Assembly: GCA_013824245.1 (NCBI GenBank)
Contig: PNNN01000031.1
Location: forward strand, 1 to 33,539
Origin: Chlorobiaceae bacterium
Lineage (GTDB): Bacteria; Bacteroidota; Ignavibacteria; UBA10030; SZUA-254
Reading direction: 5' to 3'
DNA length: 33,539 nt
Positions 5,086-29,362 of the stretch are shown here, one piece after another; position 1 is the first letter of the stretch, and every line of letters starts with the position of its first letter. The position numbers and the translations under genes are program-made. The notes beneath the pieces are model-generated. The model did no database searches and was not told the DNA's origin. It worked only from the letters and a program-made list of their open reading frames with translations.

Positions 5086-5937
5086 ATGAATACGATGAAA
5101 ACAGTCATTCTCATGACCGCTATGATGGTTCTGCTGATTTTGGTGGGATCTCTAATAGGAGGCGAGCAGGGAATGATTATGGCATTTATTATTTCTTTAT
5201 TGATGAATTTTGGCGCTTACTGGTTCTCCGATAAAATTGTTTTAATGATGTACAAGGCGAAAGAAGTTACAGAGGCAGATGCCCCCAAACTATTTTCGAT
5301 GGTAACGCGAGTGGCAACCCAAGCACAGCTTCCTATGCCGCGTGTTTACATTATACCGGGTGAAACCCCAAACGCTTTTGCAACAGGTCGAAATCCTGAG
5401 AATGCCGCAGTGGCAGTTACCGAAGGAATTATGCGTACACTTAGTGATGATGAATTAGAGGGTGTACTTGCACATGAATTTGCTCACATTAAACACCGCG
5501 ATATATTAACCGGAACAATTGTAGCAACCCTTGTTGGGACAATCACATTTATTGCACGTATGGCTGGCTGGTCGATGATGTTTGCAGGCAGAGGGAATGA
5601 TCGCCGCGATTCAAATGGCATGGCTGAACTTGCGCTTCTTATCATAGCTCCTATCGCTGCAATGATGATTCAACTCGCAATTTCGAGATCGCGCGAGTTT
5701 GCAGCTGATGAAGGCGCAGCGAGAATGTCGGGGCGACCTCTCTCTTTGGCGAATGCCTTGCAAAAATTAGAGCGCGGTGTTGAACGCCTTCCTATGCAAA
5801 GAGTATCTCCGGCATCGGCACATATGTTTATCGTTAATCCGTTGCGAGCAGGAGGGGTTATGAAGTTATTCTCGACTCATCCGCCAATTTCCGAACGAAT
5901 CGAACGACTTGAAACAATTGCAAGAGGCGGATTATAA
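5086..5937 (+). CDS. htpX: HtpX-like membrane zinc metalloprotease
   Basis: An inner-membrane M48-family protease that degrades misfolded membrane proteins, overlapping in role with FtsH. The zinc site is HEFAH (H130, E131, H134) with the third ligand E204 in the REFAADEGAARMSG segment, and the C-terminal STHPPISERIERL motif is typical. Hydrophobic segments near residues 5-25 and 28-48 and two more around 145-200 flank the catalytic helix as in the family. The length of about 283 residues is close to E. coli HtpX (293). The start is taken as ATG 5086, since AAAAGGA lies about 10 bases upstream; an in-frame TTG at 5080 is less likely. It starts after a terminator, so it begins a new transcription unit, and the following envelope genes fit a cell-envelope quality-control setting. 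Confidence 0.95.
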   Translation: MNTMKTVILMTAMMVLLILVGSLIGGEQGMIMAFIISLLMNFGAYWFSDKIVLMMYKAKEVTEADAPKLFSMVTRVATQAQLPMPRVYIIPGETPNAFATGRNPENAAVAVTEGIMRTLSDDELEGVLAHEFAHIKHRDILTGTIVATLVGTITFIARMAGWSMMFAGRGNDRRDSNGMAELALLIIAPIAAMMIQLAISRSREFAADEGAARMSGRPLSLANALQKLERGVERLPMQRVSPASAHMFIVNPLRAGGVMKLFSTHPPISERIERLETIARGGL

Positions 5938-5983
5938 TAATACAAAATCTCCATCTCCAAATGAAAGATCTGAAAAGAATAAT

Positions 5984-6613
5984 ATGCTAAAAAGTATAAT
6001 ATTCCTTTTTATATCTTGTTTGTTTTATTTTCCAGGGTTAGCGAAGCAAGAAAAAACATCTCATATCCCTTTTTCAAACTTAAAGATGATAGAAAAAGGC
6101 GTAGCAATAATTGCCGATTCGGTATTTACAAACAGTCGGATAACTCCTTCGCGGGCGATTTCTCTCACAACAGAATTATTTGAATATAACTGGATTCCGA
6201 AACAAGCTGTTTCAAATTACTTGAAAGAAAAAAGTTATCTTTTATACGACGACAAGATTGATTCAGTAGTTTCTTTAAGAATTAGCAGTTTTCAGTCAAA
6301 TATTATTTACGGAGCGCAATTCTGCGAAAGTTTATTCGGTTCGTCAAAAACAGAAAGACAAGTAGATGTTCAAATCGGTTTTTCTCTAACCGATAATACC
6401 TCAAAAGAAATTTTAATTAATTCATTGTTTCATTCTACGATAAAAGATACAATCTTCGTTAATATGATTTCAAACGTTGAAGATAAATCAATCTCTTTAA
6501 CGATTGCACCTATGCCGCTGGGAAATTATTTAGATCGCTTCGTTGAACCTTTTCTGATATTAGGAGCAACAGGAGCGGCTGTGTATCTTTTTTATTACGT
6601 AAGAACAAAATAG
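5984..6613 (+). CDS. Envelope protein of unknown function, upstream of bamD
   Basis: I do not recognise this family. The 209-residue product starts with a signal-peptide-like hydrophobic stretch (residues about 3-19) and ends with a second hydrophobic segment (about 186-205, LILGATGAAVYLFYY) followed by a short basic tail. This suggests a periplasmic domain held in the inner membrane by a C-terminal helix. The middle part is rich in beta-strand-like alternation and contains a lone cysteine in GAQFCESLFG. ATG 5984 is chosen because it puts the hydrophobic segment at the N-terminus; a longer in-frame start at 5909 would overlap htpX and bury the signal peptide. It lies 46 bases after htpX and 7 bases before bamD, so a role in outer-membrane biogenesis is possible by context only. 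Confidence 0.7.
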   Translation: MLKSIIFLFISCLFYFPGLAKQEKTSHIPFSNLKMIEKGVAIIADSVFTNSRITPSRAISLTTELFEYNWIPKQAVSNYLKEKSYLLYDDKIDSVVSLRISSFQSNIIYGAQFCESLFGSSKTERQVDVQIGFSLTDNTSKEILINSLFHSTIKDTIFVNMISNVEDKSISLTIAPMPLGNYLDRFVEPFLILGATGAAVYLFYYVRTK

Positions 6614-6620
6614 ATTTTAT

Positions 6621-7415
6621 ATGAAAATAAATATGAACAAAATAATTGTTTTATCCTTGAGCATTTTAATAATATTCTTACTCAATGCCTGTTCTTCATC
6701 CGATGTCGTAAAATCGATCACTGCAGATGAACGGTTTGAGATGGGTAAAAAGTTATTCGATGATGAGGATTATCTTGATGCAATACATGAATTTGAAATA
6801 GTGAAAATTCAATTTCCGGGAAGCACTGTCGCGGATGACGCCCAATATTATCTTGCCGAGTCTCGTTTCAAAATGGAAGAGTATCTGCTTGCCGCGCAAG
6901 AATATCAAGAACTAATCAGAAATATGTCGGCAAGCTCATTTGTACCGCTGGCACAATTTAAAGTCGGTTTGTGCTATTACAATATATCTCCCGGATCTTC
7001 ATTGGATCAACAATACACTCATCGTGCAATCGATGAATTTCAAACTTTTATCGAATATTATCCGACTCATGAATTAGTTCAAGAAGCGACCGCGAATATT
7101 AAAAAGTTGAATGAAACTCTTGCAAAAAAACTTTACGAAACAGCCAAATTATATATGAATATGGAATATTATAAATCGGCAACAATCTATTTTAATACTG
7201 TAATAGAAAAATATCATGATACACCGTATGCCGAAAGCGCATTTATAGGCAAAGTGCGAGCGTTGGTTTTACGTAAAAAATATTCCGATGCAGAACTGGA
7301 AATTGATAAATATTTCGAAAAATATGCAAACGGATCGATGAAAAAAGAAGCTGAAAATCTTAAAAAACAAATTGAGGGAGAATTAAAGTCGAATAAATCT
7401 GTAAAAAATAGCTAA
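6621..7415 (+). CDS. bamD: BamD-like outer membrane assembly lipoprotein
   Basis: A component of the BAM complex that inserts beta-barrel proteins into the outer membrane. The N-terminus is a lipoprotein signal with the lipobox L-N-A-C, lipidated at C24. The rest is made of TPR-like helical repeats: DERFEMGKKLFDDEDYLDAIHEFE, then YYLAESRFKMEEYLLAAQEY, then KLYETAKLYMNMEYYKSATIYF and a last repeat near 220-240, the order seen in BamD/YfiO. The 264-residue length fits the family (about 245-280). A second ATG at 6633 is a possible alternative start with the same lipobox. It is 7 bases after the unknown envelope gene and 19 before the thioesterase. Confidence 0.9.
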   Translation: MKINMNKIIVLSLSILIIFLLNACSSSDVVKSITADERFEMGKKLFDDEDYLDAIHEFEIVKIQFPGSTVADDAQYYLAESRFKMEEYLLAAQEYQELIRNMSASSFVPLAQFKVGLCYYNISPGSSLDQQYTHRAIDEFQTFIEYYPTHELVQEATANIKKLNETLAKKLYETAKLYMNMEYYKSATIYFNTVIEKYHDTPYAESAFIGKVRALVLRKKYSDAELEIDKYFEKYANGSMKKEAENLKKQIEGELKSNKSVKNS

Positions 7416-7434
7416 TGAATCGATATATAATCTT

Positions 7435-7941
7435 ATGAAAATAAATTCAAAAAATAAACGGTTTGTCAAAGCATCTGAGGTAGAGATGACTGAACTCGTA
7501 CTTCCCAACGATACAAATCAGCTTGGCAATTTGTTGGGTGGTCGCTTGATGGAGTGGATAGATATTGCCGCAGCAATCGCAGCCCAGAGACATTCGAACC
7601 GAGTTTGTGTAACAGCCGCCCTTGATAATCTCGTGTTTCATCATCCAATCCATTTGGGAGAAGTTGTAACTCTTCGAGCTTCGGTTAATCGAGTTTTTTC
7701 TACTTCGATGGAAGTTGGAGTTAAGGTGATAGCAGAGAATCAATTGACATCTGATCGGAGAGTTACAAATACGGCATATCTTACATTTGTAGCAGTTGAC
7801 GATCATGGAAAATCGGTCAAGGTTTCTCCGATACATCCGCAAACTGTGGATGAGAAGAAACGATATAAAGAAGCACTTGTTCGCAGAGACACTCGTCTTG
7901 TTCAAAATAACCACAAAGGTAACCGCCGAACGAGTGTTTAA
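7435..7941 (+). CDS. Acyl-CoA thioesterase, hotdog fold
   Basis: Hydrolyses acyl-CoA to free acid and CoA in the cytoplasm. The 168-residue protein has the YciA/BACH-type hotdog signature: P24-N25-D26, N28, GNLLGGRLMEWID (31-43), where the central helix carries the conserved GG and D43, followed by the SNRVCVTAALDNLVFHHPIHLGEV strand region with the substrate-side FHHP. The basic C-terminal tail (about 140-168) is variable in the family. It follows bamD by 19 bases. Its last 8 bases overlap the GTG start of the FG-GAP gene, so the two are probably translationally coupled. Chain-length preference cannot be read from the sequence. Confidence 0.9.
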   Translation: MKINSKNKRFVKASEVEMTELVLPNDTNQLGNLLGGRLMEWIDIAAAIAAQRHSNRVCVTAALDNLVFHHPIHLGEVVTLRASVNRVFSTSMEVGVKVIAENQLTSDRRVTNTAYLTFVAVDDHGKSVKVSPIHPQTVDEKKRYKEALVRRDTRLVQNNHKGNRRTSV

Positions 7942-10132
7942 TAATCACCTTCAAATTATTTGCATCATATTCTTTTTTATTCTTTCAATTAGCAATGACA
8001 TTTTTCCGCAGGATAAAAAAGGGAGTGAATATTATTATAATACTTTCGGACTAGTATCTGTTTATAAGACTCAAAGCTCACCATCAACATTAATTAAAGG
8101 TGATTATAACGACGATGGACGGGATGATATTTCTGTACTAAGTGAAGATCAATTACGCCTTTTCTATCAAAAAAGAGATTCAATTGGATTTGATGTTTCG
8201 GTTATTAATTTCTCAAATCATATCTCGATGGGCGCGTTTTCAAAACTTAAAAAAGATAAACTGTCGATCTTTATCCTTGCCACCGCCGATCCTGATGAAC
8301 TTCAAAGTTACTCTACACTTAAATTATCGAAAAAAATAATATTGTGGAGAACTAATCTTCAGGAAGAGTTCGAAAATATCGTGCTGAATGATTTGAACGG
8401 AGACAAGAGAACCGATATCATTCTATTTGGTCGTAAGCAATTGGGAATTACATATTATCGAGGTAATGGTGATGGAACCTTTCAAAATCCGATACAATTA
8501 TTTACAGATTATTCTTTCAACAATGTTTCAATTTCAACATTGCACGACAGTGAATCGCCTGATTTCGTAGGATCAAGTTGGCTGACAGACCAAATTCTCA
8601 TCTTCGCGAACGATGGTATGTTAAAATTTAGTCCACCTCTTATCATCAATGCTGCAGGCGAACCGGAAAAAATAATTACCGCAGATATTAACAAAGATCT
8701 ATACATCGATCTTATAACTTTCAATAAAAGAGAAAATAAAATAATATTATTCAATGGCGAGCTTGGCGGCGGGTTTCTTCCAAAAGAAAACAGATTAATT
8801 CCATGCATTCCTTCAAAGATTGAAATCGCCGATTGCAATAACGACGGAGTAAAAGATTTTATCATCGGAAGTTCTGTATCTAAGACGGCTGAGATATTAC
8901 TTTGCGATATAAATGGAAACTTTGTTGAAGATATCCATTATGATGGTGGAGAATCAACTTCTGACATGATGGTTTTCAGAAATAAAAAATCATCGTTTAG
9001 TAATTTGGCAATTCTTGATCAATTAAATTGCGAATTGAAAATATTATACAACGCGGCAATTCAGCAAAATAATTTTAAGAATATTGCCTATGCTGTGGGA
9101 GTAGAACCAACATCGCTTTATGTGGAAGACCTCAATAACAACGGATTAGCTGATGTTATTGTATCAAATAAAAAATCAAAATCGTTATCTCTTTTCATCA
9201 ACTCAACAGAAAGCGGATTAAAAGGACAGATTGCATTTGATATGTCCGGACATCCATCAACACTAAATATTTGTCGAAATAAAGATAATAATGTTGTAAT
9301 TGTATCTTCAGATATTGATGATCCGAAAATCCTAATTTCAGAAATAAATATATCATCATTCTCATCAAAAACATCGTCATTTTCAACCCAGCATAAGTCG
9401 TTTGTATTAAACACAATCTCGGGAACAAAGACCGAACCACTTAGGATATTTTGCTTGCAGGAGATTTCGAAAAATGAACCGGTGTCATTTGTGTTGTATG
9501 AAAGACTCAAACGTGAACGGTTTATTGAGAAAGTGATGAATCCTGTCCCGTGCGAAATTCTGAAAGGAGTAATATTTGCTGATAACAATAAAAATGTTAT
9601 TTATGCGTCGAGGTTACATTCGCAAAATAAAATTGAATTATATCGTACAATATTTACCGGTGATGATGAATTATCAAATGGTAAAAAGATGTTTACAATC
9701 GATAGCATAAAGAATTGTCCCCTTAAATTATATTCAGTTCGGTTGAACCATGATGATCTGGATGATTTGGTTGTTTCACTTGGAGAACCGGAAAATAAGC
9801 TTTATATTTTTTATGGAATGAAAGAATATTCATCAGGATCATCACAAAATCAGGGAAATATAATATTAACTAATATCGAATCGGCTAATATTCAATTTTA
9901 TGATCTTGATAATAATGGAATAAAAGATATAATATATTTAAATAAAATCACGAAAACGATCGATGTTCGATTTGTTGAGAATAATGGTGCAATCAGCAAT
10001 GTTGGGCAAATTACAACCGCTGTTGGAATATCGGATTTCAGATTTGCCGATTTGAACAATGATGGTTCACCTGAACTTTTACTTACAGATTTTGAAAATG
10101 GTTTATTAAAAATAATTCGAATGAAAGATTAA
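7934..10132 (+). CDS. Secreted FG-GAP/VCBS repeat protein
   Basis: A 732-residue exported protein, probably a beta-propeller on the cell surface. After a signal peptide (residues about 5-23, ending near FPQDKKG) it carries at least seven FG-GAP/VCBS units with Ca-binding DxNxDGxxD-like loops: DYNDDGRDD, DLNGDKRTD, DINKDLYID, DCNNDGVKD, DLNNNGLAD, DLDNNGIKD and DLNNDGSPE. No C-terminal sorting domain follows the last repeat. The start is placed at GTG 7934, overlapping the thioesterase by 8 bases, because it puts the signal peptide at the N-terminus; an open frame back to ATG 7796 would run antiparallel-free through thioesterase coding DNA and bury the signal. The metallopeptidase starts 3 bases after its stop. 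Such propellers often bind sugars or proteins; the ligand is unknown. Confidence 0.85.
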   Translation: MFNNHLQIICIIFFFILSISNDIFPQDKKGSEYYYNTFGLVSVYKTQSSPSTLIKGDYNDDGRDDISVLSEDQLRLFYQKRDSIGFDVSVINFSNHISMGAFSKLKKDKLSIFILATADPDELQSYSTLKLSKKIILWRTNLQEEFENIVLNDLNGDKRTDIILFGRKQLGITYYRGNGDGTFQNPIQLFTDYSFNNVSISTLHDSESPDFVGSSWLTDQILIFANDGMLKFSPPLIINAAGEPEKIITADINKDLYIDLITFNKRENKIILFNGELGGGFLPKENRLIPCIPSKIEIADCNNDGVKDFIIGSSVSKTAEILLCDINGNFVEDIHYDGGESTSDMMVFRNKKSSFSNLAILDQLNCELKILYNAAIQQNNFKNIAYAVGVEPTSLYVEDLNNNGLADVIVSNKKSKSLSLFINSTESGLKGQIAFDMSGHPSTLNICRNKDNNVVIVSSDIDDPKILISEINISSFSSKTSSFSTQHKSFVLNTISGTKTEPLRIFCLQEISKNEPVSFVLYERLKRERFIEKVMNPVPCEILKGVIFADNNKNVIYASRLHSQNKIELYRTIFTGDDELSNGKKMFTIDSIKNCPLKLYSVRLNHDDLDDLVVSLGEPENKLYIFYGMKEYSSGSSQNQGNIILTNIESANIQFYDLDNNGIKDIIYLNKITKTIDVRFVENNGAISNVGQITTAVGISDFRFADLNNDGSPELLLTDFENGLLKIIRMKD

Positions 10133-10135
10133 ATT

Positions 10136-11866
10136 TTGTTATCAAGAAAAATATATCTGATGTTTCTTCTAATCATCGCTTTATTGGTTTGTCAGTTCTA
10201 TGCTCTATCCCAGAATGCCGGCGGGAAACATCTAGAATTACAACAATTCTTAAATAACACTGAAACTTACAATCAAGATCAGTTAAGTCGGCAAATCCCG
10301 GCAACCGAATCTTATGGCGGTAAATGCGGATTTGGATTGATGTCTCAGATTCATGAACGATGGACAAAATATACTGACGAGCAAAAAAAACAACTAAGAT
10401 CTATTTTAGAACCGACAATAATGCAAAGCGATACTATCATAGGTAAATTCCATATATATTTCGATACAAGTGGAATCAATACACCAGCGATGCTAGATTT
10501 AAATTCGGACAGAATTGAGGGAACGTGGAGGCAATATGTAGATTCAGTAGGAAAATATTTGAACTACACATGGAATTATTTCACCGATACGCTTGGTTAT
10601 GATTCCCCTCCGTTCCAAACAGGAAATAATTATTACAATATTTTCATCGAAGAATTATACACAACTTTCAATCCCCTTTATGGAGAAACAGTTTTTCAAG
10701 AGTCGGATTTGTACGGCAACTATAATCCACCTCGATATACATCGTATATAAGAATCGATAACGATTTTAAAGATTTGAAAAGTGAAGGTATGGCAGGTCT
10801 CTCTGTAACTTGCGCTCATGAATTCCACCATGCCTTTCAATTAGGAAGTTACGGATATCGTGGAAACGATATTTATTTTTATGAGATAACATCTACATGG
10901 ATGGAGGATGTTTTATTCCCGGATGTAAATGATTATTTACAATATTTGAAAACTTCTCTTGGTTATCCTAAAGGACAATTTCTTTATCCCGATGTTTCTT
11001 TTACCTCACAATCATGGATGGTGAGTTATAGTCGTGGTATTTGGGGGAAATACATACAAAAGAAATATTCGCCACAGGTTATGAGGAATGCGTGGAATTA
11101 TTTCAGACAGAAACCGGCTCTAAATGCGATGGACGATGCACTTGCAGATGTGGGTAGTTCTTTCCGTAAATCATTTTTGGAATGGACAATTTGGAATAAT
11201 AATACCGGACCAATATCTGATACAGTTTTGTATTATGACGATGGAAAATATTTTCCTCAGATGAAATCTAACGCGTCTATTACATATTTTTCGGAGATGA
11301 GAGCGTTCAGTGATTCACTCGAAAATCTCAGCTCAATCTACCAGCCGGTTTGTTTGTTAAGTTCACCATCGGATAATTGCAATTCAAATCCGCAAATGAT
11401 GGTGATAGTAACAAATCTGAATTCATCCGTTCCATCAGGATCAAATGTCGCATTCAATTATGAACTCTCCCCGGTAGGTGGTGGAGATTTCAAACAGTTA
11501 TCAAACGGAATATTTACCCGACTCAATGTTCCCGATCCGGAGAATTGGTTTTCACAAGAAAGCATTCCAAGCATTATTTCAGAGATATTAGTTTTTCCAA
11601 ATCCGTTCAAAACGCAGAATTTGAAACCTCTGATATTTCGTTTGCCGCCAACTACGAAAGAACATGTTAATTTATCAATTTTCACTTCGTCAATGGATAA
11701 AATCATCCAACTAGATATAAATGTGGTGAGCCAAAATTTCGAACCATATATCAGTTGGGATGGACATGATGAAAGCGGCAGATTAATTTCTACCGGAATA
11801 TATTTTTATGTTTTGACATTAAATGATAAAGATTACATCGGAAAATTTGCCGTTATAAAAGAATGA
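10136..11866 (+). CDS. Secreted zinc metallopeptidase with C-terminal sorting domain
   Basis: A 576-residue secreted protease. A signal peptide (about 1-25) is followed by a pro-like region, then a catalytic domain with H228-E-F-H-H232 in TCAHEFHHAFQ and a downstream STWMED glutamate segment, resembling the MXAN_6640-type putative metalloproteases of FCB and myxobacterial genomes. The last 90 residues (from about VFPNPF) form a FlgD-like/type IX-secretion sorting domain ending in GIYFYVLTLNDKDYIGKFAVIKE. The start is uncertain: TTG 10136 gives an N-region with R-K before the hydrophobic core, whereas ATG 10160 removes all positive charge, so TTG is preferred. It lies 3 bases after the FG-GAP gene and overlaps ccmA by ATGA. 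It is probably exported across the outer membrane by the type IX system encoded elsewhere. Confidence 0.85.
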   Translation: MLSRKIYLMFLLIIALLVCQFYALSQNAGGKHLELQQFLNNTETYNQDQLSRQIPATESYGGKCGFGLMSQIHERWTKYTDEQKKQLRSILEPTIMQSDTIIGKFHIYFDTSGINTPAMLDLNSDRIEGTWRQYVDSVGKYLNYTWNYFTDTLGYDSPPFQTGNNYYNIFIEELYTTFNPLYGETVFQESDLYGNYNPPRYTSYIRIDNDFKDLKSEGMAGLSVTCAHEFHHAFQLGSYGYRGNDIYFYEITSTWMEDVLFPDVNDYLQYLKTSLGYPKGQFLYPDVSFTSQSWMVSYSRGIWGKYIQKKYSPQVMRNAWNYFRQKPALNAMDDALADVGSSFRKSFLEWTIWNNNTGPISDTVLYYDDGKYFPQMKSNASITYFSEMRAFSDSLENLSSIYQPVCLLSSPSDNCNSNPQMMVIVTNLNSSVPSGSNVAFNYELSPVGGGDFKQLSNGIFTRLNVPDPENWFSQESIPSIISEILVFPNPFKTQNLKPLIFRLPPTTKEHVNLSIFTSSMDKIIQLDINVVSQNFEPYISWDGHDESGRLISTGIYFYVLTLNDKDYIGKFAVIKE

Positions 11867-23793: not shown

Positions 23794-23904
23794 TAAGATA
23801 GAGTATAGTTTCTGTTGGAACAGAGTTGCGATGTATCCACCAAAAAGAAAATAGATGACATTCGTTTGTACAGTAATTAATCACAATGCACACAAGGAGT
23901 GTTG

Positions 23905-24657
23905 ATGGAATTCTCAGACATATTTAGAGAAGAAAGGTACTACTGCAATCATTTGTTTCGATTGCTTTGCCACGAAAAGGAAACAGGTGGGTTGAAGTCA
24001 GGACTTGGTGCTGTCATATCTGAACTCGGTTTATCTGACAATACAACCCATGCTGATATTAGAGATGCCCAAATTTACACGGAGGTTGCGGTCTTTCGGG
24101 ACGTGTTTGCTGCAGAAGCCGACAAGAATACTTTCACAGACAAACTTTATGAGCGATTTCTACCGATTATCTCTCCGCAATATAAAGGTAACGTCCGTAA
24201 TCCAATACCACCATCACAAATTCGAGAGAGAGTTGGGCTTATTCATCCAAGCAAATACGCTGATGAAGTTGAGAAGTTTACTCAAGACAAACAAGATATC
24301 CTATTCTATCGAGAATATTCTGCTCTGTTCAACGCTAAACCAGACTTCCTGATTGTTTTTAGAAATCAGATGCTCTGGTTCGAGGCTAAGTTTTGGGTTG
24401 CTTTTAGCTCTATTCAACTTCAACGGACTCGGAACATTGCGACACTCTGTAGCTCAGATGTGTTCGAGAGATATTTTGGAAAGAGACAGCCAATCATTGT
24501 TTTACTCGGATCAGATAAGCGACACAAGAAAGCTCAATCGTTTGACTCTACCCGTTTCCTTTCTTGGGAGAAGTGTTTGGATATTTCTACCAAGTTGTTG
24601 CCAAATGGCGAGAGTAATTACACGTCAAAGAGTTTCAAACAGATGCTCGCTATGTAG
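23905..24657 (+). CDS. Putative PD-(D/E)XK nuclease-like protein
   Basis: A 250-residue protein of no family I can name. Residues 146-162 contain P146-D147, twelve residues, then E160-A-K162, the spacing of the PD-(D/E)XK nuclease core, and Q171 follows in a helix that could be the supporting position. An N-terminal helix with two glutamates (E9-E10) could provide a further acidic residue. This would fit a restriction-like DNA nuclease. The start is set at ATG 23905 with AAGGAG at 23894-23899; GTG 23899 and TTG 23902 are in frame but overlap or touch the binding site. It is followed 24 bases later by the HEPN gene. The HP-rich middle part and lack of a signal peptide suggest a cytoplasmic protein. 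Confidence 0.7.
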   Translation: MEFSDIFREERYYCNHLFRLLCHEKETGGLKSGLGAVISELGLSDNTTHADIRDAQIYTEVAVFRDVFAAEADKNTFTDKLYERFLPIISPQYKGNVRNPIPPSQIRERVGLIHPSKYADEVEKFTQDKQDILFYREYSALFNAKPDFLIVFRNQMLWFEAKFWVAFSSIQLQRTRNIATLCSSDVFERYFGKRQPIIVLLGSDKRHKKAQSFDSTRFLSWEKCLDISTKLLPNGESNYTSKSFKQMLAM

Positions 24658-24681
24658 TATGTGTATACATTATGTGAAATT

Positions 24682-25959
24682 ATGAATCCAAAGACTAAGA
24701 CCTCAATTATTCAGCATCTGACCAAACTGGCAGAAAATGCCAGCGAGCCTTTCAAGGAAACTCAAGGACATACGAGGCACATAATGTCCGAAGGTGTTGC
24801 ATTCAGCCTATCGAATGAGTTTCTCGATTCCTTCGAAGATGTAGCTAGAACTCTTCTCCAAGACGAAAGTTGGAGTGAGAAATTCTCAGAAAAATATGTT
24901 GATGATCTGTTACAGAAAGTACTTGCGAAAACGCTTCGGGATGGCAACACAAACAAACTTGAGACGTACTTGGATGAAATTATCAATGAGTTCTCCAACT
25001 ATTCTCAAGAGCGAATTGTCTATATACCATTGGCTGGCATTCAGATGTCGATGGACGAACTCTCAATCGGTAAGGTTGTCTTGAAGAAAATGAAAGAATC
25101 AGATCTGGCGGCAATTACGAGTCAGATCGAAAAGGTCACCCAGTCTCTTAAAAACACGTCAGAGGAGAAGGCCTTAATTCTTGAACTTCAACAAAGAGAA
25201 ATCGGGGAAAACCTTAGAGGGCATGTCTGTTCGGTTTTCAAGGTGATCGCAGAACCTGAGCAGGCAAGAGAGCGAGCAGAAGAAGAAACAAGGCGAGTTA
25301 TAGATCTCTTACGTTTTGCGATACCTGCACTTTACCCAAAAGGCTATAATATTGCTATTGGCTTACAGGGTGAAGTATTTCGAGTAAGCCGATGGATTCC
25401 AATCATATCAACTGACGGCAAATCATTTAATACACACGCTAACCTTGTTGGACCTTTGATACCTTTCGAAATTAATGATCCTCATCTTGAGCATATGATA
25501 AAGATAGGAGTTTTCAAGGTGTCGAAAGTGCTTGCAAAACTTGGTAGAGATGTCGGAGATTTCGAGAGAGTTGTTCTGCGTGCACTTCACTGGCTTGCCA
25601 ATTCTCAAATCCAAGAGGAAAATGAAAACAAGCTACTGAATCTCATAACTTGTTTGGAGACTTTCTTGACTCCAAGAGATGGTGATCCAATAGGTACTTT
25701 CATTGCAGAAGGTGTAGCAATATTACTCGCTGATGACCTTGAAAGCAAAATAAGGCTCAAGAAAAGAGTTAAGGAACTCTATCATCTTCGAAGCGCAGTT
25801 TCCCATGGCGGCAGGAAAGCTATACTTGATAGTGACCTTGTTGAACTGGAAAACATTACAGGAGCTCTCACCATGACTCTTATTGACCGTATGGAAGAAT
25901 TCCAGTCGCACAAAGCGCTATTTGACTGGATCGAATCAAAGAAACTCGGTGGAAAGTGA
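24682..25959 (+). CDS. ApeA-like HEPN domain protein
   Basis: A 425-residue cytoplasmic protein. The C-terminal 130 residues fit an ApeA-like HEPN domain: helices ALHWLANSQIQEENENKLLNL and CLETFLTPRDGDPI, then the RNase signature R370-x4-H375 in LRSAVSHGG. The middle has a strand-rich section (ERIVYIPLAGIQM, ELSIGKVVLKKM) often seen ahead of such domains, and a charged coiled-coil-like helix at about 170-200. HEPN proteins with this motif are typically metal-independent RNases in toxin or anti-phage systems. ATG 24682 is chosen over GTG 24661, which has no binding site; both are weak. It follows the nuclease-like gene by 24 bases, and the pair is set between the ammonia-lyase and gatE. The N-terminal 100 residues match nothing I recognise. 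Confidence 0.75.
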   Translation: MNPKTKTSIIQHLTKLAENASEPFKETQGHTRHIMSEGVAFSLSNEFLDSFEDVARTLLQDESWSEKFSEKYVDDLLQKVLAKTLRDGNTNKLETYLDEIINEFSNYSQERIVYIPLAGIQMSMDELSIGKVVLKKMKESDLAAITSQIEKVTQSLKNTSEEKALILELQQREIGENLRGHVCSVFKVIAEPEQARERAEEETRRVIDLLRFAIPALYPKGYNIAIGLQGEVFRVSRWIPIISTDGKSFNTHANLVGPLIPFEINDPHLEHMIKIGVFKVSKVLAKLGRDVGDFERVVLRALHWLANSQIQEENENKLLNLITCLETFLTPRDGDPIGTFIAEGVAILLADDLESKIRLKKRVKELYHLRSAVSHGGRKAILDSDLVELENITGALTMTLIDRMEEFQSHKALFDWIESKKLGGK

Positions 25960-26063
25960 TGTGACAAAACTATATAAAAGTTAAAAGTGCTGGGAAGCGG
26001 GATCTTCGGCAAGAAACAAAGATATTGAACTATATTTTAATTTATACTTATTAAAAAATTACT

Positions 26064-27977
26064 ATGCACAAGTTTATATTTAAACCATTTGATGAGATGA
26101 CCGAAAAAGATTATGCAACGGTCGGATTCAAATCGGGTTTAGAAATTCATCAACAACTCTTAACAGAGAAGAAACTATTTTGCCGCTGTCCTGCCGGTCG
26201 GTACAGCGATAAGTATGATGCTGAAATACTTCGTCATATGCGTCCGACACTCTCAGAGCTTGGCGAGTATGACGGCACTGCGTTGATGGAATTCAAAACG
26301 AAAAAAGAAATCATTTACCGCATCAAGCGCGAAACAGTTTGCACCTACGAGATGGATGATACGCCGCCATTTCAAATTGATGATCACGCGCTTGACAGCG
26401 CTCTTGCTATCGGGATGCTCTACGGATGCACAATGGTGGATGAAGTTCACATCGCCCGGAAACAATATTTGGATGGAAGTATCCCCACAGGATTTCAACG
26501 GACAGCTATTGTTGGTGTTGACGGAAATATCCCTTACAAAAATCGGGAAATAAAAATTATACAACTTTCGATTGAAGAAGATGCATGTCGTGAAGTTAGC
26601 GACATCGGACATCGCAGAGTTTATATAACAGATCGATTGGGAATGCCGCTAATTGAAACAGTTACCGGTCCTGATATGCGAACACCTATTGAAGTTGCCG
26701 AAGTGGCTCAGATATGCAGACGCTTAGTCAGAAGCACCGGAAGAGTCCGAACTGGAATCGGTGCCGGCAGGGAAGATGTTAACGTGAGTGTTACAGGCGG
26801 AACAAGGATTGAAATAAAAGGCGTACCTCGAATCGTCAGCATCCCGCTCTTAACTTACAACGAGGCGATGCGGCAATGGAATCTTTTGCGACTGCGCGAA
26901 GAACTTAAGCGCCGTGGCATCACAGAAAAATCTTTTAAATCGAAAACTGAGAATGTTACCAAAATTCTCCGCAAAACCCGCTACCAACCGATACAAAACG
27001 CAATTGAACAGGGGATGAAAATAAATTGTGTGCTTCTGCAGGGATTCAAAGGATTATTGAGATGGCAAACTCAGACCGACACATATTTTTCGCGTGAGAT
27101 ATCTGATCGCGTTCGTGTTGTTGCTTGTTTAACCACTTTGCCGAACATAATTCACTCTGACAGTTCCGGTGATACAATCGCCGCATCTGAATGGCAAAAT
27201 ATAAAAAAGCAGATTGGTGGTAAAGATGATGACACCTTAGTGTTAGTCTGGGGTGATGAGCAAGATGCGAATACAGGCGCGCAGGAAATAGTAATTAGAG
27301 CGAAAGAAGCGACGATCGGAATTCCATCAGAAACACGGCAAGCGTTTCGAGACGGGACAAACGGTTTTGAGAGAATACTTCCCGGTCCGGATAGAATGTA
27401 CCCTGACACAGATTTACCTCCCAAACGGATAGAAGATGAGAAATTGGAAAAATTGCACCTCACTTTACCGAATCGAATTTGGGAAAATGAAAAGTGGTAT
27501 CGTAAATTAAAAATTCCAACAGATGTTATCGAACCACTCGCAGCATCTAAATACACAAAACTATTTGAGATGCTGGTGAAGGATTCGAAATTAAATCCCA
27601 CTTTAGTCGCAGTTGTATTAATTCAATATCAAAAGCGTTTAAAAACATATTTCCCGAAAGCGAAACAAATAGAAATAGAAACCTTTGAAGAAATATTTGA
27701 GGCATTTAAATCCGGTATAATTACCAGAGAAGGAATTATTTTGGCGATGAAGGGAGCGTTCACAAATAGTAAACTCAGATTCCCTAAAAAAATAAAATCA
27801 CCTGAACTGACAAAAGTTATAAAAGAATCACAAAAGGCAATCAAAAAAATGAAAGTTCAAAAAAAGGACAAGGCAACTGAAATATTGATGGGAATGATAA
27901 TGCACAAAGTTAGAGGCAGGGTAGAGGGTAGAGTTGTTGCGGAGCGGATTGGATTTTCGGGAAAGGGGAAAAACTAA
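26064..27977 (+). CDS. gatE: Glu-tRNA(Gln) amidotransferase subunit E
   Basis: The kinase/transamidase subunit that converts Glu-tRNA(Gln) to Gln-tRNA(Gln), with ammonia supplied by GatD. The 637-residue length matches archaeal GatE (about 620-630) rather than GatB (about 480). The domain order is a GatB-like cradle with G25-L-E-I-H-Q-Q and KLFCRCPAG, an inserted AspRS-type GAD domain (about 290-420, with LLQGFKGLLRW and LVWGDEQDANTGAQEI), then RILPGPDRMYPDTDLPP and a YqeY-like helical tail with GVVxERIGF-type ending. No ribosome binding site is obvious. Its stop overlaps the gatD start by one base (TAATG), so subunits are coupled. GatDE is an archaeal trait and unusual in a bacterium. Confidence 0.95.
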   Translation: MHKFIFKPFDEMTEKDYATVGFKSGLEIHQQLLTEKKLFCRCPAGRYSDKYDAEILRHMRPTLSELGEYDGTALMEFKTKKEIIYRIKRETVCTYEMDDTPPFQIDDHALDSALAIGMLYGCTMVDEVHIARKQYLDGSIPTGFQRTAIVGVDGNIPYKNREIKIIQLSIEEDACREVSDIGHRRVYITDRLGMPLIETVTGPDMRTPIEVAEVAQICRRLVRSTGRVRTGIGAGREDVNVSVTGGTRIEIKGVPRIVSIPLLTYNEAMRQWNLLRLREELKRRGITEKSFKSKTENVTKILRKTRYQPIQNAIEQGMKINCVLLQGFKGLLRWQTQTDTYFSREISDRVRVVACLTTLPNIIHSDSSGDTIAASEWQNIKKQIGGKDDDTLVLVWGDEQDANTGAQEIVIRAKEATIGIPSETRQAFRDGTNGFERILPGPDRMYPDTDLPPKRIEDEKLEKLHLTLPNRIWENEKWYRKLKIPTDVIEPLAASKYTKLFEMLVKDSKLNPTLVAVVLIQYQKRLKTYFPKAKQIEIETFEEIFEAFKSGIITREGIILAMKGAFTNSKLRFPKKIKSPELTKVIKESQKAIKKMKVQKKDKATEILMGMIMHKVRGRVEGRVVAERIGFSGKGKN

Positions 27978-29362
27978 TGGCATCTGACGATTATAAAGGT
28001 TATCGAGGAGAAGCATTATCCACGCTGAAAAATTTCGATGCTTTAGTTTGGAGTGATGTTGAGATTAAAACAAGCAGAGGAAGTTATACCGGTATAATAT
28101 TGCCGCGTTCAGAGACTGCTGATCCACTGCATGTCGTGATCAAATTGCGATCGGGGTATAACATCGGAATCGCTGTAAGTAAAATTCAGAATATTAAGAT
28201 TACCGGAAGGAAAGAGGCACATTACAAAATTCCCGAGAAAGCATTTCCATATGATCCAAAAAAACCTAATGTGAAACTGCTTGGAACAGGCGGTACAATT
28301 GCAAGTCGTTTAGATTACCGTACAGGCGCGGTGATCCCGGCATTTTCGCCAGGCGAATTATACGGCTCCGTTCCTGAACTCGCTGATATATGTAATCTTG
28401 AAACAGAAAAACTCTATGGAGTCTTCAGTGAAAATATGGGACCTGAACAATGGCGCGGTACCGCAGAAGCAATCGGGCGTGAAATCGAAAAAGGTGTTCA
28501 GGGAATTGTAATCGGGCATGGTACTGATACGATGCACCATACTGCGGCAATACTTTCATTCATGGTGCAGAATTCGCCGGTACCGATTGTCATGGTTGGC
28601 TCTCAACGTTCCAGCGACCGACCTTCTTCGGATGCAGCATTAAATTTGCAGCATAGCGTAAAGACAGCGGCTGAAAGTGATATTGCTGAAGTGATGGTTT
28701 GTATGTTCGGACCAACATCAGATACGTACGGATTGCTTCACCGAGGAACGCGTGTAAGAAAAATGCATTCCAGTTACCGCTCAACTTTCAGAACAATCGG
28801 AGATATACCTATTGCCATGGTGAGTACGGAAAAGATTACTCCAATACGGACAGATTATAAGAAGCGAAGGAATGATAAAAATGTAATAATCAATACTGCA
28901 TTCGAAGAGAAAGTCAGCATCGTTTATTATTATCCAAATATGAAACCTGATATTATTGATTCACTGATCGATAATGATTATAAGGGAATTGTGATTGCGG
29001 GTACCGGACTTGGACATGTCAACAAACCGCTATATCCAGCTTTGAAGCGGGCTAAAGAAAAAGGGATAGCAGTTTACATGACTGTGCAAACTTTGTGGGG
29101 GTATGTCCAGATGTATGTATATGACACAGGACGCGATATGATGGAATTAGGTGTGATACCGGGGGAAAATATGTTGCCTGAAGTCGGCTACATGAAGTTG
29201 GGTTGGGCGCTCGGGCAGACAAATGATTTAGAAAAAGTAAGAGATATTATGATGACACCAATAGCCGGTGAAATCACTGAACGCGAACCGAGTAATGGGT
29301 ATCTGATCTTTCAGGGTGGCATACCTGAAGTTGAGGAGTTTATATCGAAATATAGGAAGTGA
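27977..29362 (+). CDS. gatD: Glu-tRNA(Gln) amidotransferase subunit D
   Basis: The glutaminase/asparaginase-like subunit that releases ammonia for GatE. The first 90 residues form the small beta-barrel domain of GatD that is missing from plain asparaginases (YRGEALSTLKNF...YTGIILPRS). The asparaginase domain follows, with LGTGGTIAS (T107) and the GHGTDT motif (T183, D184), the SSDAALNL segment, and a late lysine expected in the active site. The 461-residue length fits archaeal GatD (about 430-440), not type I or II asparaginase (about 330). The start is fixed by its one-base overlap with gatE. The MFS gene follows 9 bases later and may be cotranscribed. Confidence 0.95.
   Translation: MASDDYKGYRGEALSTLKNFDALVWSDVEIKTSRGSYTGIILPRSETADPLHVVIKLRSGYNIGIAVSKIQNIKITGRKEAHYKIPEKAFPYDPKKPNVKLLGTGGTIASRLDYRTGAVIPAFSPGELYGSVPELADICNLETEKLYGVFSENMGPEQWRGTAEAIGREIEKGVQGIVIGHGTDTMHHTAAILSFMVQNSPVPIVMVGSQRSSDRPSSDAALNLQHSVKTAAESDIAEVMVCMFGPTSDTYGLLHRGTRVRKMHSSYRSTFRTIGDIPIAMVSTEKITPIRTDYKKRRNDKNVIINTAFEEKVSIVYYYPNMKPDIIDSLIDNDYKGIVIAGTGLGHVNKPLYPALKRAKEKGIAVYMTVQTLWGYVQMYVYDTGRDMMELGVIPGENMLPEVGYMKLGWALGQTNDLEKVRDIMMTPIAGEITEREPSNGYLIFQGGIPEVEEFISKYRK

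Follow-up and report, generated by a model that had tools for sequence, protein, structure and literature searches.

The window analyzed here, that is, the whole stretch of 33,539 nucleotides (nt) of contig PNNN01000031.1 from a Chlorobiaceae bacterium of the class Ignavibacteria, contains gatE and gatD, which encode the two subunits of the GatDE amidotransferase (Table 1). The stop codon of gatE and the start codon of gatD overlap by one base within TAATG (positions 27975 to 27979). GatE matched NF003107 over its full length with 540 bits (cut-off, 456) and TIGR00134 with 460 bits (cut-off, 319.55), and Pfam matches were obtained with GatB_N (154.6 bits) and GatB_Yqey (27.9 bits, just over the cut-off of 27); in a profile search of the whole genome, PF02637 scored 29.3 bits on the GatE tail. 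Similarly, GatD gave a full-length match to TIGR02153 (524 bits; cut-off, 324), and its three Pfam domains, GatD_N (PF18195), Asparaginase (PF00710), and Asparaginase_C (PF17763), were all over the cut-off. Judged on these sequences, a chance match is excluded as the source of either call. The first-pass annotation, which had claimed a full-length GatE with a GAD insertion and a YqeY-like tail, coupled by TAATG to a full-length GatD with its own N-terminal barrel and a T107, T183-D184 site, was thus borne out, though the GAD insertion was located with a score under the cut-off.

Table 1. Genes and protein domains of the gatDE locus, in window coordinates
Feature	Position	Strand	Evidence or remark
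gatE, bacterial subfamily, 637 amino acids (aa)	26064..27977	+	TIGR00134 and NF003107 over curated cut-offs
GatE cradle (kinase/transamidase) domain, residues 16-305	26109..26978	+	H29, E171, E172, and E198 invariant
GAD (AspRS-like) insertion of GatE, residues 310-403	26991..27272	+	PF02938, 19.9 bits, under the cut-off of 23.4
Helical and YqeY-like tail of GatE	27561..27947	+	PF02637; predicted fold, with hardly any sequence conservation
gatD, 461 aa, amidohydrolase subunit	27977..29362	+	TIGR02153; T107, T183, D184, K262
GatD N-terminal barrel (GatD_N), residues 26-75	28052..28201	+	PF18195, 54.1 bits
GatD C-terminal extension, residues 437-461	29285..29359	+	Past the archaeal match, conserved in bacteria

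The catalytic residues of both subunits were conserved. GatE residues H29, E171, E172, and E198, whose equivalents in GatB we take to be metal ligands, were among the residues invariant across 61 sequences. GatD residues T107, T183, D184, and K262 aligned with those of the archaeal enzymes, and T183, D184, and K262 were invariant, and T107 nearly so, in 25 bacterial GatD sequences. Archaeal alignments to GatD stopped at residue 436 or 437, and 13 positions of the 25-residue extension beyond it, between E437 and I456, were invariant among 25 bacterial sequences. The gene order was also constant, gatE being followed by gatD on the same strand in all 92 loci in which both open reading frames (ORFs) were recovered, out of 103 loci read.

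The ratio of nonsynonymous to synonymous substitution rates (dN/dS) was 0.02 to 0.04 for the GatE core (nine distinct pairs, some sharing a sequence) and 0.014 to 0.029 for GatD (eight comparisons). Such low values indicate that gatDE is under strong purifying selection and therefore in use. Conservation along GatE was uneven. In the cradle, mean identity was 76.4% over 740 bacterial pairs of less than 70% overall identity, and 138 of 290 positions reached 98% invariance among 102 sequences. The last 75 residues, by comparison, showed 24 to 30% identity at cradle identities of 70 to 85%, versus 56 to 67% for the GatB tails of the class; at cradle identities of 75 to 80%, the values were 26.0% for GatE tails (2,924 pairs) versus 61.5% for class GatB tails (84 pairs). 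The three archaeal pairs had tails 36 to 39% identical at cradle identities of 56 to 57%. No position of the last 75 was invariant in GatE (23 class loci, including the divergent locus of genome G156 described below), versus 10 in GatB (29 sequences).

The AlphaFold model of GatE had a mean predicted local distance difference test (pLDDT) score of 81.9, residues 50 to 79, 94 to 100, 136 to 143, and 440 to 450 being under 50. In a Foldseek search, its best matches were the archaeal structures 1ZQ1 (E = 2.8e-43) and 2D6F (E = 6.1e-40), with template modeling scores by query length of 0.64 and 0.62 and root mean square deviations of 5.6 to 5.9. For GatD, modeling gave a pLDDT of 64.5, and this poor model was left out of the comparisons. 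The fold of the GatE tail seems to be kept, since residues 531 to 630 were predicted as helices with block pLDDT values of 84 to 94 and the dN/dS of the tail was 0.07 to 0.20.

The genome from which the window derives (3.23 Mb in 76 contigs; computed completeness, 100%) is bacterial, as had been claimed from the gene context. The search for gatCAB and glnS proposed along with that claim had a mixed outcome: no GatB was found in the genome, where the GatB model matched GatE only, but a full-length GlnRS was present (778 bits; cut-off, 426; 524 of 524 model positions), its gene glnS (566 aa) sharing one operon at contig C22 with gltX (510 aa), and an AsnRS was over the asnS cut-off with 497 bits. 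The Asp/Asn/Lys group of class II synthetases had three members, AspRS and LysRS being assigned by sequence reading. GatE alone exceeded the PF02637 cut-off; a 150-aa YqeY-like protein also gave a weak match. The single amidase-family gene is probably not gatA, because its product has a hydrophobic N terminus and it is flanked by secA-like and era-like genes.

ARAGORN detected two tRNA-Gln genes, with CUG and UUG anticodons, both with U1-A72, G2-C71, and G73. These are the features of tRNA-Gln in the bacterial GlnRS set (PMC9976931), and the first base pair is, according to the same source, what amidotransferases rely on. The archaeal signature, A1:U72 and A73 (PMC9499178), was absent from both genes. 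Among 17 genomes with GatE, tRNA-Gln(UUG) carried U1-A72 in 16 and G73 in all 17. The remaining genome (G160, with GlnRS and without GatB) has A1-U72, the archaeal GatDE identity pair (G160:C109:13400-13600, L328), unlike the other 19 genomes whose tRNA-Gln(UUG) was read, which all have U1-A72.

The two isoacceptors of the window genome (L146, 101-172, and L137, 1500-1573) differ in the D arm and the variable loop. Like tRNA-Glu, its tRNA-Gln(UUG) has a variable loop of 4 nt together with C9, U11-A24, C12-G23, and U13.G22, the last four being GluRS recognition elements. The idea that this tRNA is the substrate of GatDE was not supported, since the 4-nt loop tracks GlnRS and not GatE. In a pattern search, in which matches were read by eye and those not resembling tRNA were dropped, the loop was found in 14/17 genomes with GatE and GlnRS, in 20/24 with GlnRS and without GatE, and in 1/27 without GlnRS; no match was obtained in 3 of the 20 genomes with GatE and GlnRS and in 2 of the 29 without GlnRS. 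A same-genus genome (G172) also has a tRNA-Gln(UUG) copy with a 5-nt loop. Two tRNA-Asp(GTC) genes of very different sequences were also observed in the window genome (L124, 1501-1576, and L140, 101-174).

GatE was over the cut-off in 22 of the 296 genomes sampled from the phylum, all 22 among the 73 belonging to the class of the window genome, and vertical inheritance throughout the phylum, which had been named as an alternative to transfer from archaea, thus does not hold. GlnRS, GatB, and AsnRS were over the cut-off in 44, 65, and 70 of the 73, respectively. A general scan of genome contigs searched for exact peptide patterns taken from the window protein, so the absence of archaea from it is uninformative; the best 80 of its 99 related loci were mostly from Ignavibacteria, Kapabacteria, and metagenome-assembled genomes named Bacteroidetes, and also from Aminicenantes, KSB1, and Marinimicrobia. 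From these 80 genomes with GatE, 50 were examined as a second sample, and GlnRS was over the cut-off in 47 (in five as gene pieces) and GatB in 29. Since seven genomes are common to both samples, 65 distinct bacterial genomes with GatE were available, of which 60 have GlnRS and 64 have GlnRS or GatB. Four of those lacking GlnRS have GatB (G287, G251, G304, and G308), and G337 does not. The only GluRS/GlnRS-type frame detected in G251 was 135 aa long, although G055, of the same genus, has both synthetases; in G337, which looks incomplete, only a 68-aa frame of this type was found. Therefore, on gene content, GatDE would be the sole route to Gln-tRNA in no complete-looking genome. The proposal that GatDE had replaced or supplemented the bacterial enzyme was accordingly divided: replacement is contradicted by the GlnRS and AsnRS of the window genome and by the GlnRS counts, and supplementation stands as possible.

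Within the class, GlnRS was present in 20/22 genomes with GatE and in 24/51 without it (Fisher p = 0.0005). In the best tree built from 71 GluRS rows, GlnRS needed 3 changes and GatE at least 14, and the well-supported branches forced 7 changes of a combined GlnRS and GatE label. Seven independent pairs differed in GatE and GlnRS in the same way in 1.1 cases on average, in the opposite way in 0, and showed no difference in 5.9. The Fisher value is not independent of kinship, and coexistence, not dependence, is the fair claim from these distributions. At least one amidotransferase was kept in 42 of the 44 class genomes with GlnRS. GatE was present in 6 of the 8 class genomes without GatB over the cut-off, one of the 8 (G116) having a 124-aa frame that matches GatB positions 368 to 480. 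As a route to Asn-tRNA in these genomes GatDE was rejected; it would not be needed for Asn, since all 8 have AsnRS over the cut-off.

With respect to origin, the window GatE was 33 to 36% identical to three archaeal GatE sequences, and the bacterial sequences in general were about 30 to 37% identical to those of Pyrococcus abyssi and Methanothermobacter thermautotrophicus and to a frameshifted Natrinema copy (rows listed). To every other bacterial GatE in the sorted list the window protein was 59 to 94% identical, except to that of G156. This genome, of the same class and with GlnRS and GatB, carries a second, deep GatDE lineage with a GatE 43% identical to that of the window (L289, 2539-5915). 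The window GatD was 72 to 98% identical to 24 other bacterial GatD sequences, the value of 72% corresponding to a shortened ORF. Bacterial and archaeal GatE fell on opposite sides of one very long branch (Shimodaira-Hasegawa-like approximate likelihood ratio test [SH-aLRT], 100; bootstrap/SH-aLRT, 100/100). No archaeal donor lineage was found among the three archaeal sequences compared, and a scan of viral contigs yielded no further archaeal GatE; an old transfer from archaea, as first proposed, was not shown on this very thin archaeal sampling, the bacteria forming one long-stemmed clade. Distances of GatE and GluRS were correlated across 21 genomes (Mantel r = 0.50; 1 of 2,000 permutations as high), and the history of GatE was therefore partly vertical within the class. 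In addition, GatE sequences of Aminicenantes, KSB1, and Fidelibacterota were nested among other bacterial sequences, which points to movement of GatE between bacteria. Convergence of bacterial GatE on GatB was also considered, without a clear signal: of 19 fixed-difference sites compared, GatB agreed with the bacterial GatE residue at 5 and with the archaeal one at 3.

GluRS typing, which had been proposed as a check, was carried out. The criterion of Arg358 of Thermus thermophilus is not diagnostic in this class and failed on its controls: Arg occupied this position in 71 of 72 GluRS sequences (G004 and G251 not represented), including those of GlnRS-less genomes. Two genomes of family f10, G160 and G196, combine GatE and GlnRS with a GluRS that groups with GlnRS-less rows (SH-aLRT, 86 to 90); this GluRS could yield Glu-tRNA(Gln) needing clearance.

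Our favored explanation, to which we attach moderate confidence, is that bacterial GatDE may work alongside GlnRS as a second amidotransferase, cleaning up Glu-tRNA(Gln). Glu-tRNA(Gln) would arise from partial mischarging of tRNA(Gln) by GluRS or from misactivation of Glu by GlnRS, and GatD would release ammonia from glutamine or asparagine. In bacteria with GlnRS and AsnRS, GatDE would thereby be the amidotransferase retained instead of GatCAB, and GlnRS would not be replaced. We infer the substrate, the source of the mischarged tRNA, and the clean-up role from the gene content and conservation described above.

Several observations weigh against this explanation. Mischarging of tRNA(Gln) by GluRS in genomes with gatDE is assumed; three columns that split the GluRS of genomes with GlnRS from that of genomes without it place the GluRS of the window genome in the former group, a division that tracks the tree. 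GatE is only weakly associated with loss of GatB, since among genomes with GlnRS GatB is missing in 6/20 with GatE and in 2/24 without it (Fisher p = 0.11; 4 independent pairs). There are 22 class genomes with GlnRS and GatB and without GatE, and 2 with GlnRS that lack both; conversely, 14 genomes with GatE and GlnRS retain GatB, and the role would be doubled there. Furthermore, the two complete archaeal GatE sequences agree at 51 columns at which 95% or more of the 102 bacterial GatE sequences share a different state (another residue at 48 and a gap at 3), and 30 of them lie within residues 16 to 305; at 47 such sites, G156 has the bacterial residue in 31 and the archaeal one in 4. Finally, residues 500 to 628 of GatE had a mean identity of 30.7%, and a single one of these 129 positions reached 98% invariance in the set of 102 sequences; a separate alignment of the C-terminal part agreed (31.1%; 557 pairs). 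In the known GatDE and GatCAB enzymes, the tail contributes to distinguishing tRNA(Gln) from tRNA(Glu) via the D-loop (PMC4810234), and the C-terminal domains of yeast GatB have been examined through deletion mutants (PMC4027206). A nearly unconserved tail seems odd for a tRNA(Gln)-specific enzyme.

A bold alternative is a change of substrate, in which bacterial GatDE would amidate Glu (or Asp) elsewhere than on tRNA(Gln), or on tRNAs without specificity for tRNA(Gln), and would serve outside normal glutamine decoding, the catalytic pair being kept and the reader of the tRNA elbow set free. We consider this possible, though not probable. It would account for a tail far more divergent than those of GatB and archaeal GatE at comparable or lower cradle identity, for the long stem to archaea with fixed differences in conserved cradle loops, and for the nearly constant presence of GlnRS, by which Gln-tRNA is already supplied. 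However, bacterial GatDE agrees with the archaeal enzyme in catalytic residues and overall fold, purifying selection still acts on the tail, and no conserved neighbor names another pathway: the commonest, a protein of about 447 aa, occurs at 21 of 103 loci (some genomes counted twice, two copies more than 4 kb away), in a comparison that is weak because many loci end close to gatDE. From its sequence, this neighbor reads like a PIN/PhoH protein. Formulated as a neofunctionalized GatDE, freed from the tRNA(Gln) elbow and serving an unrecognized step in bacteria with GlnRS, with another acyl-tRNA or a non-tRNA glutamyl compound as the substrate, the idea is a doubtful one that we put forward tentatively.

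The other explanations are far less probable. That this bacterium, like archaea, obtains its Gln-tRNA(Gln) mainly or solely through GatDE would agree with a complete GatDE and the lack of GatB, but it is very hard to reconcile with a full-length GlnRS encoded in an operon with GluRS and with two tRNA-Gln genes of bacterial type, and the GlnRS and GatB counts led us to reject GatDE as a sole route. Decay of an older indirect pathway, superseded on the arrival of GlnRS, might explain the patchy presence and many changes of GatE on the GluRS tree; a relic would be expected to drift, and the substitution rates of GatD and the GatE core, together with the uninterrupted frames of 21 of the 22 class GatE genes (that of G082 has an internal TAA), largely refute it, making it highly unlikely. 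It is equally improbable that GatD acts as an asparaginase or glutaminase with GatE as no more than its regulator or scaffold: GatD is a member of the asparaginase superfamily and the better conserved of the two subunits, but the GatE core, including H29, E171/E172, and E198, is constrained about as strongly.

Compared with known systems, bacterial GatDE resembles most closely archaeal GatDE (P. abyssi, 1ZQ1; M. thermautotrophicus, 2D6F, with tRNA-Gln), which has the same subunits, domain order, and catalytic residues and is the best match of bacterial GatE in both sequence and fold. It differs from the archaeal enzyme in the low identity and separate long clade of GatE, in the unconserved tail, in an N-terminal stretch of GatE and the C-terminal extension of GatD that are conserved in bacteria, and in its coexistence with GlnRS and bacterial-type tRNA-Gln. 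The GatB subunit of bacterial GatCAB (3AL0, 3KFU, and 2DF4) shares with GatE the catalytic cradle and the YqeY-like tail, and in this class it likewise stands beside GlnRS and AsnRS; GatCAB, however, has the amidase-type GatA in place of the asparaginase-type GatD, and the tails of the class GatB proteins are well conserved. An amidotransferase alongside both direct synthetases has been described in Bdellovibrio, Deinococcus, and Thermus, where GatCAB coexists with GlnRS and AsnRS (PMC4206432). In that case AspRS accepts tRNA(Asn) and the substrate is Asp-tRNA(Asn), whereas GatDE is of the glutamine type, with GatD for GatA.

The claim that GatDE is regarded as archaeal agrees with two reviews: GatDE is said to be now found only in archaea, the known archaea all lacking GlnRS (PMC9499178), and is given as archaeal (PMC8007984). 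Its presence in at least 65 bacterial genomes, 60 of them with GlnRS, contrasts with this view. A literature search, in which most papers were judged by title, returned no title on bacterial GatDE; automatic annotation very probably already names the genes, since the NCBIfam models match. The catalytic core of bacterial GatE is about as conserved as that of GatB, and its elbow-reading tail drifts. Were the clean-up explanation true, bacteria with GlnRS would still need clearance of Glu-tRNA(Gln), which would bear on the retention of GatB in class genomes with GlnRS and AsnRS; were the substrate changed, a translation enzyme would have been recruited for something else. Retention of an amidotransferase beside both direct synthetases in class genomes without GatE is a separate puzzle: the 22 with GlnRS and GatB (G039, G047, and 20 others) all have AsnRS over the cut-off, except G200.

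A chimeric assembly with archaeal DNA, also raised in the first-pass annotation, is unlikely, because the block of hutH, gatE, gatD, a major facilitator superfamily (MFS) gene, and a radical S-adenosylmethionine gene is collinear in the same-genus genome G172, on a 793-kb contig with 84 to 88% DNA identity; moreover, the GatE matches of two other species lie in the chromosome-titled records CP054675.1 and CP053447.1. Between the hutH-like gene and gatE, the stretch from 23794 to 26053 of the window has no counterpart in the collinear block of G172 and contains two ORFs (23899-24657 and 24661-25959), neither of which matched Pfam; the latter also lacked an NCBIfam match (the former was searched in Pfam only). 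Further upstream, in the region from 5909 to 11866, ORFs 5909-6613 and 10136-11866 had no Pfam match, and ORF 7796-10132 has FG-GAP repeats.

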